The notes beneath the pieces are model-generated. The model saw nothing but the letters and a program-made list of their open reading frames with translations. It did no database searches and was not told the DNA's origin. A DNA stretch of 64,000 nucleotides from Acidobacteriota bacterium. GTDB lineage: Bacteria; Acidobacteriota; Terriglobia; Terriglobales; SCQP01. Where the stretch lies: positions 62,001-126,000 of the forward strand of contig DAIDIE010000031.1 in NCBI GenBank assembly GCA_027459505.1, read 5' to 3'. Below, in pieces: positions 14,571 through 33,844 of the stretch (positions within the stretch are counted from its first letter, which is position 1; each line of letters starts with the position of its first letter). The position numbers and the translations under genes are program-made.

Positions 14571-14720
14571 GATGATTTTTTCGGTACGCGATGGCTGCCG
14601 CCGGGTAGCGAGCAAAGCTCATTATGAAACGAAAAGGGACTGCGGAAGTCCATGGATCGGGGCTCCAGGAACTGGCCCACCGGGTTCACCCGTGGAGCGA
14701 GCCGTCGAGGCCTCACTGTG

Positions 14721-14930
14721 GGAGCTACGGCCGGGGGAGATCGCCAGCGGAGGGCCGCGAAATTCTCCCGGGGTCCAAGCGCAGTGTTTGCTTTGTTGGG
14801 TGGGAAGGGCAGCTGCCTCGCCGGGGAGAGGAGCCCGGCATCGGCAGCTTCACGTTCTCACTGGAGAACGCGCCAGCGGCCCGCCAGGAAGCAATGCCGG
14901 CGGGGCGGCTCAGGAGACGAGGCCGTGCCT
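14721..14930. ncRNA. Structured-RNA-like element, copy A (class not recognised, strand uncertain)
   Basis: Two blocks here match an element at 17.4 kb. Block 1 (14741-14764) is TCGCCAGCGGAGGGCCGCG plus AAATT, 23 of 24 bases identical to copy B. It is enclosed by a stem GGGAGA/TCTCCC (14735-14740 with 14764-14769). Block 2 (14882-14916) has the loop AGCAATG closed by GG/CC and CGCC/GGCG, followed by GCGGCTCAGGAG. In copy B the same loop is closed by a different stem, GCTGG/CCAGC, so pairing is kept while the sequence changes. I do not recognise the class and cannot assign the strand. Confidence 0.55.
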
Positions 14931-14980
14931 GATTGCCGGTAAGAACGGAGAGAGCACGGGGACCGTGCTGATCGCCTCCA

Positions 14981-15015
14981 AAAGCAAAAAGGGGAACGGT
15001 TGCCCGTTCCCCTTT
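14981..15015 (-). terminator. Terminator of the 24-residue peptide gene
   Basis: On the minus strand GGGGAACGG, a four-base loop and CCGTTCCCC are followed by TTTTTGCTTTT, 17 bases after the peptide stop. Confidence 0.92.
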
Positions 15016-15031
15016 GACGAATGCGAAGAAG

Positions 15032-15106
15032 CTACTTCTTTTTGGCAGTCTTCTTCTTCGTGGTGGTCGCAGCCTTCTTCGCAGGTTTCTTCGTGGCTTT
15101 TGCCAT
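15032..15106 (-). CDS. 24-residue Lys/Ala/Thr-rich peptide, histone H1-tail-like
   Basis: Translation gives MAKATKKPAKKAATTTKK followed by KTAKKK and a stop: 12 lysines, no acidic residue and two KKPAKKA/KKKTAKK-type blocks like the tails of histone H1-like bacterial proteins. GGAG lies nine bases before the ATG, a near-consensus sigma-70 promoter (15166-15194) lies upstream and a strong terminator follows the stop, so it has a complete small transcription unit. Binding to DNA or RNA as a nucleoid or ribosome-associated peptide is an inference from charge alone. It could also be a decoy frame in a small RNA. Confidence 0.75.
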   Translation of the reverse strand: MAKATKKPAKKAATTTKKKTAKKK

Positions 15107-15493
15107 GAGCTTTTCTCCAAGTATTTAAAATCTGCGCCAGTCAAAACTCGCGCAGCGTTAGTGCATGTATAGAATCTGCGCGCGCAAGTGTCAAGAAAAA
15201 AATGCAAATCGCATCCTCTCCCGAACTCGCCGGTCAGGATTCATACCTCAGAGTGAGATGCAGCCCGGCACCTATTGGCATGCATCCGCAGTTGTGGATT
15301 TGTGCCGAGCACTGCTCGCGAATGGCTAAAATCGCGGTGATCAGACCTGGAGTGAAGCGCGGAGAGTGGTTTAGGACTGTTGCACTCTGAGGGATTTGGG
15401 CAGGAATGATTGTCGCGGGGCGCATCTGGCGCGTGCCAGTGAGGAAGGCGCTTGTAACCGGAAAACAAGGCGCGGAATCGAAACAGAGTGTTT
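15107..15493. other. 387-base divergent intergenic stretch
   Basis: Apart from the peptide promoter I see a 10-bp inverted repeat CCTCAGAGTG (15247-15256) / CACTCTGAGG (15383-15392) set 126 bases apart, upstream of the VWFA gene. No coding sequence is convincing. Confidence 0.55.
15166..15194 (-). promoter_or_regulatory. Near-consensus sigma-70 promoter of the small peptide gene
   Basis: On the minus strand TTGACA (15189-15194) and TATACA (15166-15171) are separated by exactly 17 bases. It is the best promoter match I noticed in the window. It predicts a start near 15159 and a leader of about 53 bases. Confidence 0.85.
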
Positions 15494-16621
15494 ATGAAGC
15501 AATGGAATCAGAGCCTGGGGATGGACAAGGCGCCGTGGCGCTCAGTGCGCCCCGCAACGACTGGCCGGAATCGCGCCCTGGGCTTTTGCGCCGGGCTTGT
15601 GCTGCTGGCCGTGATCAGCGCACCCCTTTGCGGGTTGGGGCAAGCCATTACGCCTGGAGCGCTGCCTCCCAATCCGCAGGTTGAGGTACCGCCGGCGCCT
15701 GCCGCGCAGCCGGCCCCGGTTCGTATTCAACGGCAGGTGAACCTGGTCAACATCTCTTTTAGCGTCGTCGACCCGCATCATCAGCCCGTGACCGGTGTTC
15801 GTGCCAGCGATCTTGAGGTGTTGGACGACAAGCGGCCGCAGCGGATAAGTTTTTTTTCTGTGGGGCACGATGTGCCGCTGACGGTCGGACTGTTGCTCGA
15901 TACCAGCCCGAGCCAGATCAACGTGCTCCCAGCGGAGCAGCAAGCCAGCGAGCGTTTCTTCGATGAGGTCATTACGCCCAAGGACCTGGCGTTTATCGTC
16001 GGTTTCGATGTGGACACCAACCTCCTGCAGGATTTGACCTCTTCGCTACCGGCTTTGCGGGCGGCGATCGAGCAGGTCCATGTCGGCGGGGGAGGTATCG
16101 CTTCGCCAGTGATCAGCTCCGGGCCTTTCCCGTCCAGCGTCACACATCCGGGCTCTACCCACCTGTGGGACTCGATTGTGATGGCGTGCAATGACCGGCT
16201 GGCGGCGCAGGTGGGGCGCAAGGCGATCATTGTGATGACCGACGGAGAAGACCAGGGCAGCCGCTACACGCCGCAGGACGCTCTGCGGGCGCTCCTGGAC
16301 ACCAATACCAGCCTGTACGCTTTTATCATCGCCGATCCACGTTTCTATAACGGCACGTACACCGGGGCTGGGGCTCTAACGCGGCTGGCCAAAGAGAGCG
16401 GAGGGCTGAGCTATGGAAGCCGGCATTTGCGGCGATCTTTCGACGAGCTGAGCCAGCGCCTGCGAACACAATATTCGTTGGGGTATATTCCCGAGCGTGG
16501 GGCGCTGGACGGGAAGTTTCATCACATCCTCATCCGTCTGAAGGGAAATCGCTTCAAGAAAGACAAAGTACAGGCGCGTAGTGGCTACTTTGCAGTGCCG
16601 CCTCCTCACGGGCAGGAATAG
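15494..16621 (+). CDS. Acidobacterial VWFA-related domain protein
   Basis: Exported or membrane-anchored protein with a hydrophobic N-terminal segment (~28-50), a Pro-rich linker (56-76) and a von Willebrand A-like domain. The MIDAS motif is DTSPS at 136-140 and the second metal strand is IVMTDGED with D250. The strand VNISFSVVDPHHQPVTGV before it and 'YSLGYIPE' near the end are standard for the acidobacterial VWFA family (TIGR03436 type). ATG 15494 is chosen over GTG 15488, six bases upstream in frame. Ligand and partners are unknown. It ends at a bidirectional terminator shared with the convergent Cys-rich gene. Confidence 0.9.
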   Translation: MKQWNQSLGMDKAPWRSVRPATTGRNRALGFCAGLVLLAVISAPLCGLGQAITPGALPPNPQVEVPPAPAAQPAPVRIQRQVNLVNISFSVVDPHHQPVTGVRASDLEVLDDKRPQRISFFSVGHDVPLTVGLLLDTSPSQINVLPAEQQASERFFDEVITPKDLAFIVGFDVDTNLLQDLTSSLPALRAAIEQVHVGGGGIASPVISSGPFPSSVTHPGSTHLWDSIVMACNDRLAAQVGRKAIIVMTDGEDQGSRYTPQDALRALLDTNTSLYAFIIADPRFYNGTYTGAGALTRLAKESGGLSYGSRHLRRSFDELSQRLRTQYSLGYIPERGALDGKFHHILIRLKGNRFKKDKVQARSGYFAVPPPHGQE

Positions 16622-16696
16622 AACAAGCGGCATCGCGAGCCAGTGGAATCAAAGCGGCCGTGCCGCTTCAGCTGGTTTGCGCGTGGGGTAGAGACG

Positions 16697-16730
16697 CAAA
16701 AGGCCTGGAGCGCCAGCCCCAGGCCTTTTG
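16697..16730. terminator. Bidirectional terminator between convergent genes
   Basis: Perfect 12-bp inverted repeat CAAAAGGCCTGG / CCAGGCCTTTTG (16697-16708 and 16719-16730). Each side ends in an A or T run, so it can serve both the VWFA gene (+) and the Cys-rich gene (-). Confidence 0.88.
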
Positions 16731-16748
16731 CATATTCCGGCAGAGAAC

Positions 16749-17018
16749 TCAGTTGGGCATGTCGTCGTCGAGCAAAGCCTGCTCATCAAGGTTGAGCAGG
16801 TGCGCCGGGCAGTCACACGCGCCGCAGGAGATAACGCCATCGTCGGAGAGCTGTTCCTCAGTCATGACGACGAGGCGGGCACAAAAGGGGCAGTGGAGAA
16901 GGGCGCAAAGGCCATTGCCCTGCTGCCGTCCGTCGCTGCAGGTGCTCATGAGCAGCATGCTGCCGGGTTCGATCAGGTTGGGGATCCAGGCATCGACCAG
17001 CTTGACTGCGCTTACCAT
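16749..17018 (-). CDS. Small Cys-rich protein, probable zinc-binding
   Basis: An 89-residue protein with C27, C38, C43/C46 (CPFC), C65/C68/C70 (CGACDC) and H73, an arrangement that suggests one or two zinc-ribbon-like knuckles. The C-terminus is acidic (LLDDDMPN). The start ATG 17018 has GGGAG eight bases upstream. It is flanked by a terminator downstream and structured element B further upstream. I do not recognise a named family. A role as a regulatory or rubredoxin-like protein would be a guess. Confidence 0.72.
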   Translation of the reverse strand: MVSAVKLVDAWIPNLIEPGSMLLMSTCSDGRQQGNGLCALLHCPFCARLVVMTEEQLSDDGVISCGACDCPAHLLNLDEQALLDDDMPN

Positions 17019-17724
17019 GGCGATTCTCCCTCGTTTCTGCCCTGCAAAGGGCGTTCATGCCTCTGTCACCATCTCCTGCAATTCAATAGCCGTCCTCCGG
17101 TCTATTGGATGCCGGGATGGCTCGATCAGATGCGATTCCTCAAACGCCCTCAATCTACCGTCGTTAAGGACTCCCGGCAAGCGCTTCAGCGTGGCGGCTG
17201 TTTACTTTTGGGGCTCAATTGGGCAGCGAACCAGCGCGAATTTGCCGTCGTGCTGGCAAAAACGACGCGCAAGCCATTGCGTGGCCGTGGGGCTAGAAGC
17301 AACCTTTCCAGGGTAAACAGGCGACTGCGCTAGAGCGAAAGGTGCTAGGCCGACTGGCCTCAACAACCTGCACGGCAGCTGCGAGCCTCCCCGTCGCTCT
17401 TTGGAAGGAGTCGTCCGAGGAAATCGCCAGCAGAGGGCCGCGAAATTCCAAAGGACGGCGCCCTCGCGCCGGAGGGGATTGCGGCATGGGGCGGCCTATA
17501 CCGTTTCGCGAAAAACGAGCCAGCAACCCGAAGCTGGAGCAATGCCAGCGAGCGGCTCAAGAGGACGCGTCTCTTCGCTTTCCGCGTGTCCCGGTGAGAG
17601 CAAGTTGCCTAGTGGCCTGGGCGCTTGGCCGAAAATCGCAGACTCCGGTTAAAAACTCGTGGAAATGCGTCCTGAAAAAAAACTGAGCCGGCGACTCCGG
17701 AGAGGCAACGCCCACCTCTGGATT
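17019..17724. other. 706-base intergenic stretch containing element B
   Basis: Lies between the Cys-rich gene start and the rnhB stop. It holds structured element B (17400-17580). A plus-strand frame across 17050-17330 could be translated but shows no family I recognise and lacks a start with a ribosome site, so it is left uncalled. Confidence 0.6.
17400..17580. ncRNA. Structured-RNA-like element, copy B (class not recognised, strand uncertain)
   Basis: Related to element A. Block 1 (17424-17447) differs from copy A at one of 24 positions and is enclosed by GGAA/TTCC (17419-17422, 17446-17449) and GTCC/GGAC (17413-17416, 17453-17456). Block 2 has the loop AGCAATG (17538-17544) closed by GCTGG/CCAGC (17533-17537, 17545-17549), then GAGCGGCTCAAGAG. 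Sequence between the blocks is unrelated to copy A and shorter. Conserved loops on changed stems point to selected RNA structure, but two copies are too few to prove it. Confidence 0.55.
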
Positions 17725-28343: not shown

Positions 28344-29759
28344 TTAGTTGCTGAGCTTGTCGGCGAGCTGGATCAGCAGGCGCTGCAACTCCTTGTTGTC
28401 CTGCCGCTCCTGCTCGATCTTGCGGATCGAGTGCAATACAGTGGAGTGGTGCTTGCCGCCGTAAAAGCGGGCAATTTCAGGCAAGGAAGCCTCGGTGAGC
28501 TGTTTAGCCAGATACATGGCGATCTGCCGGGGAAAGACGATGTTTTTGGAGTTGTTGCGCGCCTTCAGGTCGGCAATCCGCATATTGAAATACTCGGCAA
28601 CTACCTTGCCAATGCCTTCAATATCTACCTTATGCTGCTGCTGGTCGAGAACGTGCCGCAGCGCCTCCTGGGCGACCTTGACGCTCACCGGCAAAGCCTT
28701 AACCGAACAGTAGGCCAGCAGCCGCACCAGCGCGCCCTCCAGCTCACGGATGTTGCTCTTGATATGGCGGGCAATGAATTCGGCAACTTCGGGCGGCAAC
28801 TCTGGAGTGGAGGCTTGGTTGACGCGCTCCGATTGCGCCTTCTGCATGAGAATGGCGATCTTGGTTTCCAGATCGGGAGGCTGAATATCGGCGATCAAAC
28901 CCCACTCAAAGCGCGACAGCATGCGCTCTTCCAGCTGCGAAAGTTCACGTGGCGGGCGATCGCTGGAAATGACGATCTGCTTCTCGGCGCCGTGAAGAGC
29001 GTTGAACGTATGAAAAAACTCTTCCTGAGTACGTTCCTTGTTGGCGATGAACTGAATATCGTCGATCAATAGAACGTCGACCAGACGATAACGGTCGCGA
29101 AAAGCGATCATCTGATCGTTGCGCAGAGCGCTGATCATTTCGTTGGTGAATTTCTCGCCGGTAACGTACTCGACCCGCAGCTGCGGATTGCGCAGTTTGG
29201 AGCGGTGGCCAATGGCCTGCATCAAATGGGTCTTGCCCATTCCTACTCCGCCATACAGGAACAGCGGGTTGTAGGCCTTGCCGGGCCGGTCGGCGCAGGC
29301 CTGTGCGGCGGCATGGGCGAACTGATTGGAGCCGCCAACCACGAACGTTTCGAAGGTGTAGCGGGAGTTGAGCGTGTTCACGACCGAATCGAAGTCGAGC
29401 CGGGTTTGCAGCGGCGATGAGGCGGCAGGCGCCGCTGGCCCAGCCGCGGACGGCGCGGCTGGTGACGGTAAGGCCGGACCGGCGCCGGTCTGCGATGTGC
29501 CGGCGCTGACGAAACAAATGTCGCTGATTTGGGTGTCGAGGTGGAGGGAGAGGATGGCTCGCTCCAGTTGCGGGCCGAACTTTTCCTTAACGCGCTGGAA
29601 ATCCGGGTTGGGGACCGCCACGAAGAGCGTGCCTTCATCGAGCCGTTCTTGCCGCGTCGGACGCAGCCAGGTGTTGAAACTGTGCGGATTCACCTGTTTT
29701 TGCACTTCGCCCAGGATCTGTTCCCAGGTGGTGCGACTCTTAGCCGTTGATTGCGCCAT
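28344..29759 (-). CDS. dnaA: Chromosomal replication initiator protein DnaA
   Basis: AAA+ initiator that binds DnaA boxes and opens the origin. Domain I (WEQILGEVQKQVNPHSFNTWL) is followed by a ~45-residue Ala/Pro-rich domain II linker, Walker A GGVGMGKT at 170-177, Walker B LLIDDIQFI, and the domain IV signature with HHSTVLHSIRKIEQ near the end. ATG 29759 with GAAAGAAC upstream gives 471 residues; 19 extra residues from an upstream ATG are Arg/Ser-rich and not DnaA-like. It faces away from rpmH across a region with a perfect DnaA box. Confidence 0.97.
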   Translation of the reverse strand: MAQSTAKSRTTWEQILGEVQKQVNPHSFNTWLRPTRQERLDEGTLFVAVPNPDFQRVKEKFGPQLERAILSLHLDTQISDICFVSAGTSQTGAGPALPSPAAPSAAGPAAPAASSPLQTRLDFDSVVNTLNSRYTFETFVVGGSNQFAHAAAQACADRPGKAYNPLFLYGGVGMGKTHLMQAIGHRSKLRNPQLRVEYVTGEKFTNEMISALRNDQMIAFRDRYRLVDVLLIDDIQFIANKERTQEEFFHTFNALHGAEKQIVISSDRPPRELSQLEERMLSRFEWGLIADIQPPDLETKIAILMQKAQSERVNQASTPELPPEVAEFIARHIKSNIRELEGALVRLLAYCSVKALPVSVKVAQEALRHVLDQQQHKVDIEGIGKVVAEYFNMRIADLKARNNSKNIVFPRQIAMYLAKQLTEASLPEIARFYGGKHHSTVLHSIRKIEQERQDNKELQRLLIQLADKLSN

Positions 29760-33675: not shown

Positions 33676-33844
33676 GGCGACCATACGAGCTATGGCCGGG
33701 TCGAACTGGGTTTCGGGTTCGAGACCGCAGGCCGACTGTATTCCCTTGCTCACGCACCGCTGGCGCTTGGGGAACCCGGGCCCCCATCCGTGAGCTTCGG
33801 CCAGAATAAAGGCGTCCGTGCCGTCTGGCCTAAACGCTGACCGC

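Follow-up and report, generated by a model that had tools for sequence, protein, structure and literature searches.

A dispersed acidobacterial element family, almost certainly mobile, with a folded left end and a one-base target rule

Palindrome-associated transposable elements (PATEs), described in Haloquadratum, are non-autonomous elements of the IS605 type (PMC3119063). Y1 enzymes act on single-stranded DNA, where they bind hairpins near each end and cut 3' of two tetranucleotides, one in the left flank and one at the right end; class 3 of the TnpA_Y1 enzymes is associated with about 600 structures in Solibacter usitatus (Acidobacteria), which are hairpins with a C-n-G-A foot (PMC6006769). 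Here, we analyzed a stretch of 64,000 nucleotides (the window) from an Acidobacteriota bacterium (GenBank assembly GCA_027459505.1, contig DAIDIE010000031.1, positions 62,001 to 126,000), in which two structured elements lie within 2.9 kb of each other. They are old, decayed and probably no longer functional members of a dispersed family, termed family A, that is nearly certainly a mobile element. A search of one literature collection found no publication on this element.

A sequence-only reading of the window had reported two copies of an element resembling a structured RNA, with a shared block of 24 bases and a second block around the loop AGCAATG, carried by stems that differ in sequence. 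The two copies were borne out. A shared block (GARATCGCCAGCNGAGGGCCGCGAAATT) is found at 14737-14764 and 17420-17447, with 0 occurrences expected in shuffles, and the AGCAATG(CC) loop is seen at 14890 and 17538, at the equivalent place of both aligned elements and on stems that do differ between the two. Taken alone, the AGCAATG(CC) word is at chance level (2 seen, 1.0 expected). Both copies had been located correctly, but their true spans, taken from the ends of the family, are larger than first given (about 14693-14931 and about 17377-17575). The features of the two copies are as follows.

14693-14931, plus strand: family A element, copy 1, long-arm variant (nhmmer 150 bits; 88.8% identity to the consensus; ends placed by many-copy alignment)
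14689-14692, plus strand: left target tetranucleotide C-NNN (CCCG) in the flank of copy 1 (rule of C at -4; window sequence)
14697-14701, plus strand: P1 5' strand GCGAG of the three-way junction, copy 1 (covariation)
14817-14821, plus strand: P1 3' strand CTCGC, copy 1 (covariation)
14750-14764, plus strand: P3 5' strand and start of the conserved loop (GAGGGCCGCGAAATT), copy 1
14890-14896, plus strand: AGCAATG loop, copy 1
14919-14931, plus strand: 3' terminal hairpin of copy 1 (GAGGC-CGT-GCCTG), at its right boundary
17377-17575, plus strand: family A element, copy 2, an old copy with about 75% identity to relatives (nhmmer 73.7 bits; BLAST 71-82%)
17373-17376, plus strand: left target tetranucleotide C-NNN (CGGC) in the flank of copy 2 (rule of C at -4; window sequence)
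17433-17447, plus strand: P3 5' strand and start of its loop, copy 2
17538-17544, plus strand: AGCAATG loop, copy 2

Compared with shuffled sequences, copy 1 folds only slightly better (z -1.2) and for copy 2 there is no gain (z 0.0), while a young family A copy reaches z -2.0 when folded as RNA and -2.7 as DNA. The comparison with Rfam that had been suggested for the two copies gave no match at the gathering threshold, and chance matches only at E 10.

The genome of the same bacterium (G000; 4.06 Mb in 45 contigs) holds about 130 copies of family A, dispersed and 180-310 bp in size. BLAST of copy 1 against it gave at least 55 matches (from 40 scored of 180 candidates). Pattern searches counted 130 P3-block sites and 135 sites of the 3' end; the reversed controls gave 10 and 2. 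Counts at the level of elements rest on 1.99 Mb of this genome, read as stretches; there, a profile built from 50 full copies had 135 matches, of which 116 reached 50 bits. Near-complete copies were at least 95% identical to the consensus in 67 of 89 cases, and family A has therefore been active recently.

The consensus starts with AGGAGCGAGCCACCGAGTCC on the left and finishes with GGCTCAGGAGACGAGGCCGTGCCTC on the right. Beyond both ends the flanks are unrelated among copies, so that the boundaries are sharp. The 5' end forms a three-way junction and the 3' end a terminal hairpin, GAGGC-CGT-GCCTC; inverted terminal repeats are absent from the aligned copies (left end AGGAGCGAGCC, right end as reverse complement GAGGCACGGCC). 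Arms are modular, as an extra hairpin of about 40-60 bases is present at one or more of three positions in some copies, and the AGCAATG segment is missing from 39 of the 89 near-complete ones. Family A has no open reading frame, and elements of this size are too short to code for a transposase. In one copy (C24:268163, given as contig and position), a hairpin that is imperfect in the others is a perfect one of 18 bp, as if by a template switch within the palindrome. Many contigs (C6, C10, C18, C24, C25, C26, C42, and others) begin or end inside a family A copy, with breaks at recurring model positions (about 43 or about 143), and the family thus breaks the assembly.

Insertion follows a simple rule on the left side. 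The junction reads C-N-N-N followed by the element, with C at position -4 in 87 of 91 own family A copies and the next three bases free; judged by eye, both window copies conform (CCCG and CGGC). Among relatives in other genera, for which the start of each subfamily was fixed once, by alignment, C was at -4 in all 25 insertions with a placeable start, from four subfamilies. The right end is GCCTC in 97 of 105 A copies, with nearly free sequence after it. A general target duplication was not found, as nine or more bases were common to both flanks in 5 of 99 copies, where 1.5 would be expected. Among the five is the copy at C39:163918, which unlike the others lies between perfect direct repeats of 26 bp and whose 3' end is altered. 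The two window elements had been taken for a selected RNA present at two places. This view is not supported: they belong to a dispersed family, nearly certainly mobile, whose ends are sharp and whose insertion follows a target rule, and in which the AGCAATG loop is dispensable.

The folded left end is shared across genera. Its core is the three-way junction of helices P1, P2 and P3, with the loop GAAATTCCGMAGG. P1 is GCGAG/CTCGC in the own genome, GGCAG/CTGCC in G013 and GGGGC/GCCCC in the G002-type subfamily; P2 occurs as CCACC/GGTGG, CGACC/GGTCG, CCCCC/GGGGG, GTCCC/GGGAC and CGCGC/GCGCG, and P3 as GGCCGC/GCGGCC and ACCCGC/GCGGGT. A first P1 model, GAGCC/GGCTC, was replaced by GCGAG/CTCGC after comparison with the relatives. 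In 28 distinct cores, 92.6% of the cells are paired and 10 of 16 pairs show two-sided changes. With helix positions picked per subfamily and apical parts removed, the covariation score of these cores across genera was 0.409, versus 0.140 in shuffled alignments (0 of 500 as high) and at most 0.094 in slid versions. The search pattern that gathered the sequences overlaps part of P3, not P1 or P2, and conservation of the P3 loop is partly imposed by it. For the own genome alone, the score was not above shuffles (at best marginal). A conserved, covarying structure, as proposed by the sequence-only reading, is thus present, but in helices mostly other than those that it had named.

Conserved loops on covarying stems do not by themselves establish an RNA. 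G-T cells (50) were not in excess over A-C cells (44), and RNA and single-stranded DNA are therefore indistinguishable. That family A is a structured noncoding RNA that works in the cell and owes its spread to duplication by chance is highly improbable in our view; covariation of the junction across genera and the lack of an Rfam match would suit it, but about 130 copies in every gene context, sharp ends, a target rule, a dispensable loop and the missing G-T excess would not, and most genomes of the family have few copies or none. Likewise, a cis-regulatory role is not indicated, because the copies stand in gene contexts of all kinds. The folded RNA of a mobile element could also have a function of its own, for example as a guide-type RNA for a nuclease encoded elsewhere. 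The large folded left end and the strong conservation of the P3 loop (partly imposed by the search pattern) point in this direction, against which the Rfam search gave no HEARO or omega RNA match at E 10, TnpB (PF07282) is absent from the own genome, and a rule that fixes one target base offers a guide little to match; we consider such a function quite improbable.

Relatives were sought by sequence, structure and pattern. Nothing was found by blastn in 59 relatives, and a covariance model detected divergent members in two genomes of the same family of the Genome Taxonomy Database. Weak matches of the model in G093, G129, and G254 look like chance and apparently lie in coding sequence. Allowing up to one mismatch, the P3 pattern occurs 71 times in the own genome and 1-14 times in 7 of 13 genomes of the same family (G002, G005, G007, G009, G010, G012, and G013), whereas the 136 genomes of the sister family gave one match, apparently within coding sequence. 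In 84,980 species genomes, a 22-base version of P3 was found at 19 loci, exclusively in acidobacterial metagenome-assembled genomes; a 20-base version had no match in viral contigs. Further copies, for which the sequence-only reading had suggested a search, are thus plentiful in the own genome (about 130), but its two-block pattern gave none in the 84,980 genomes. The relatives are subfamilies with a common plan and differing sequence; elements of G013, for instance, close with GAGGC-GA-GCCTC or a near variant.

A second family in the own genome, family B, is a sister of family A, with which it has the left rule, the type of 3' hairpin and, largely, the orientation in common. Its profile had 116 matches in the 1.99 Mb, and 85 of these scored at least 50 bits. 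Family B starts with (N)CGAGCCAGGGCCGAGTC and has C at -4 in 13 of 14 cases. It retains the GAG/AATCGCA internal loop in its first hairpin and ends in GCGGC-CGT-GCCGC (GCCGC in about 65 of 68 copies), after which the sequence is largely free. The P2 hairpin has the tetranucleotide CCGA in front of it in A, B and most relatives, but not in the G002-type subfamily. Two family B sequences are in the window.

33683-33823, plus strand: family B element, decayed (nhmmer 63.3 bits)
16638-16666, plus strand: right end only of a family B element (GTGGAATCAAAGCGGCCGTGCCGC), between the two family A copies (E 0.001)

The copy at C14:1459-1686 has the left end of A and a B-type 3' hairpin as its right end, which suggests that the ends of A and B are interchangeable. 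Composites of the two families also occur: at C10:88320-88690, an A element is inserted in B, with six or seven B bases missing, and at C9:1616-2005, a second A of another subfamily is joined to B at the same position. The two families together contribute well over 200 copies to a genome of 4 Mb and break its assembly.

Elements of A and B mostly keep one orientation over long distances. Neighbouring A and B elements are oriented alike in 142 cases and unlike in 30, where shuffles gave 75 unlike (minimum 55). On contig C39, the orientation of A and B flips where the GC skew flips; a link between orientation and the replication fork is at most plausible. The dnaA gene is at 28416-28622 of the window (minus strand); the GC skew does not change sign there, and a change is found near C8:60000, just before the window.

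How would such elements move? We give roughly an even chance to the reading that A and B are non-autonomous palindrome-ended elements (PATE- or REP-like), moved as single-stranded DNA by a Y1/HUH transposase. The enzyme would be supplied in trans and would most likely be a Y1 (HUH) enzyme of the IS200/IS605, TnpA_REP or class 3 type. It would read the folded ends on single-stranded DNA, cut 3' of the target C-N-N-N on the left and 3' of the last four bases of the element on the right (CCTC in A, CCGC in B, also C-N-N-N), and the strand would be re-inserted without duplication. We propose that the structure is kept because only foldable copies would move. Y1 geometry is the best match because tetranucleotides at both junctions, the absence of a duplication and folded ends occur together. 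The class 3 TnpA_Y1 proteins of Acidobacteria are the best lead to a mobiliser. Of the genomes of the family, 7 of the 8 with the element and 1 of the 6 without it have Y1 genes (Fisher p 0.026).

A number of observations weigh against a Y1 enzyme. Targets of IS200/IS605 elements are fixed over four bases, and here fixation concerns the first of the four left bases only. A search with PF01797 found two incomplete Y1 genes in the own genome, neither of the class 3 type: one is IS200-like and cut off by a contig end, and the other is an apparently frameshifted REP-associated transposase (RAYT), flanked by its own hairpins. In 8 genomes, 13 Y1 loci were found; A and B flank none of them, none has a REPtron arrangement, and the relatives carry Y1 genes of several types. 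Two A copies are joined to B without the same stretch of B, so that insertion may not always be exact. As for orientation, IS200/IS605-type mobilisation would place insertions in the lagging-strand template; the regional bias seen here is strong, but its relation to GC skew is mixed. Agreement with skew is 72:28 for A and 36:34 for B, and on contig C8, which carries dnaA, orientation stays constant where the skew changes. The hairpins at the RAYT gene (L168 1248-2090) read GCCCACTCAAC...GTTGAGTGGGC, and both own Y1 genes (C40:8475 and C42:123703) are near copies of one reading frame of about 300-350 amino acids.

Mobilisation in trans by another enzyme that reads a folded single strand, such as a tyrosine or serine recombinase or a new class of transposase, is possible, if doubtful: no protein family recurs beside element copies, TnpB is lacking and no mobiliser is tied to the element, but the junction geometry, with its left and right tetranucleotides and no duplication, is that of a Y1 product. 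An autonomous parent was rejected on the same two grounds, the lack of a recurring neighbour protein and of TnpB. Somewhat less probable still is a new class of mobile element limited to one uncultured acidobacterial family, in which a large covarying three-way junction and a terminal hairpin would steer insertion to a place beside one fixed base (C-N-N-N), carried out by an enzyme of whatever type, possibly with an RNA intermediate or a functional RNA.

We also considered a SINE-like bacterial retroelement, in which a reverse transcriptase would read the 3' hairpin of the transcript and the cDNA would be inserted at a C-containing target. Copies without 5' parts that keep the 3' hairpin (for example C10:98487, C22:5677, C34:59890, and C9:59373) would then be incomplete cDNAs, and A-B chimeras could be template switches. 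However, copies without 3' parts occur too, neither a poly-A-like tail nor a regular target duplication is seen, and the sole reverse transcriptase found is a single-copy UG19 defence-type protein, not a retroelement enzyme or group II intron maturase (82 bits with the group II model, cut-off 300). Such a retroelement is thus unlikely. The UG19 protein has 701 amino acids (C39:90888-91292).

Elsewhere in the window, an apparent reading frame of 24 amino acids, rich in Lys and Ala and H1-like, lies on the minus strand at 15032-15107 (MAKATKKPAKKAATTTKKKTAKKK), and a strong hairpin follows it near 14992-15016, between copy 1 and the next gene.

Several genera share one and the same target rule but differ in element sequence and copy number. 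The system of A and B is thus well suited to the questions of which enzyme moves elements that lack a transposase, what a folded end has to look like and why a single target base is read.

Compared with known systems, family A resembles HEARO, the omega RNA of IscB, in being structured, dispersed and often without an open reading frame. HEARO has an ATGA- or GTGA-like sequence after its right end. Family A differs in that no such sequence is conserved there and that the HEARO covariance model (RF02033) has no match. With REP sequences or REPINs and their RAYTs (PMC3116915, PMC6006769), family A shares the dispersed, intergenic and folded state and, presumably, the movement in trans; however, its elements are 180-310 bp rather than 20-65 bp long and are not inverted doublets, their foot is CCGA with no GTAG or GTRG, and the own RAYT is flanked by another hairpin (GCCCACTCAAC). 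The structures of class 3 TnpA_Y1, with which family A was compared by description only, are from the same phylum, have a high copy number and the C-n-G-A foot (here CCGA before the P2 hairpin), but no class 3 protein was identified here by the PF01797 search, and no gene is flanked by family A or B structures. PATEs are similar in the absence of terminal inverted repeats, the palindromes near both ends, the lack of a target duplication and of room for a transposase, and the many copies. Unlike them, family A has a far larger left end, a three-way junction that covaries across genera, and one fixed target base, and no IS605-type parent with the same ends was found. Most likely, family A consists of non-autonomous mobile elements of a PATE-like kind, in which the conserved left end is unusually elaborate and the target rule concerns one base.

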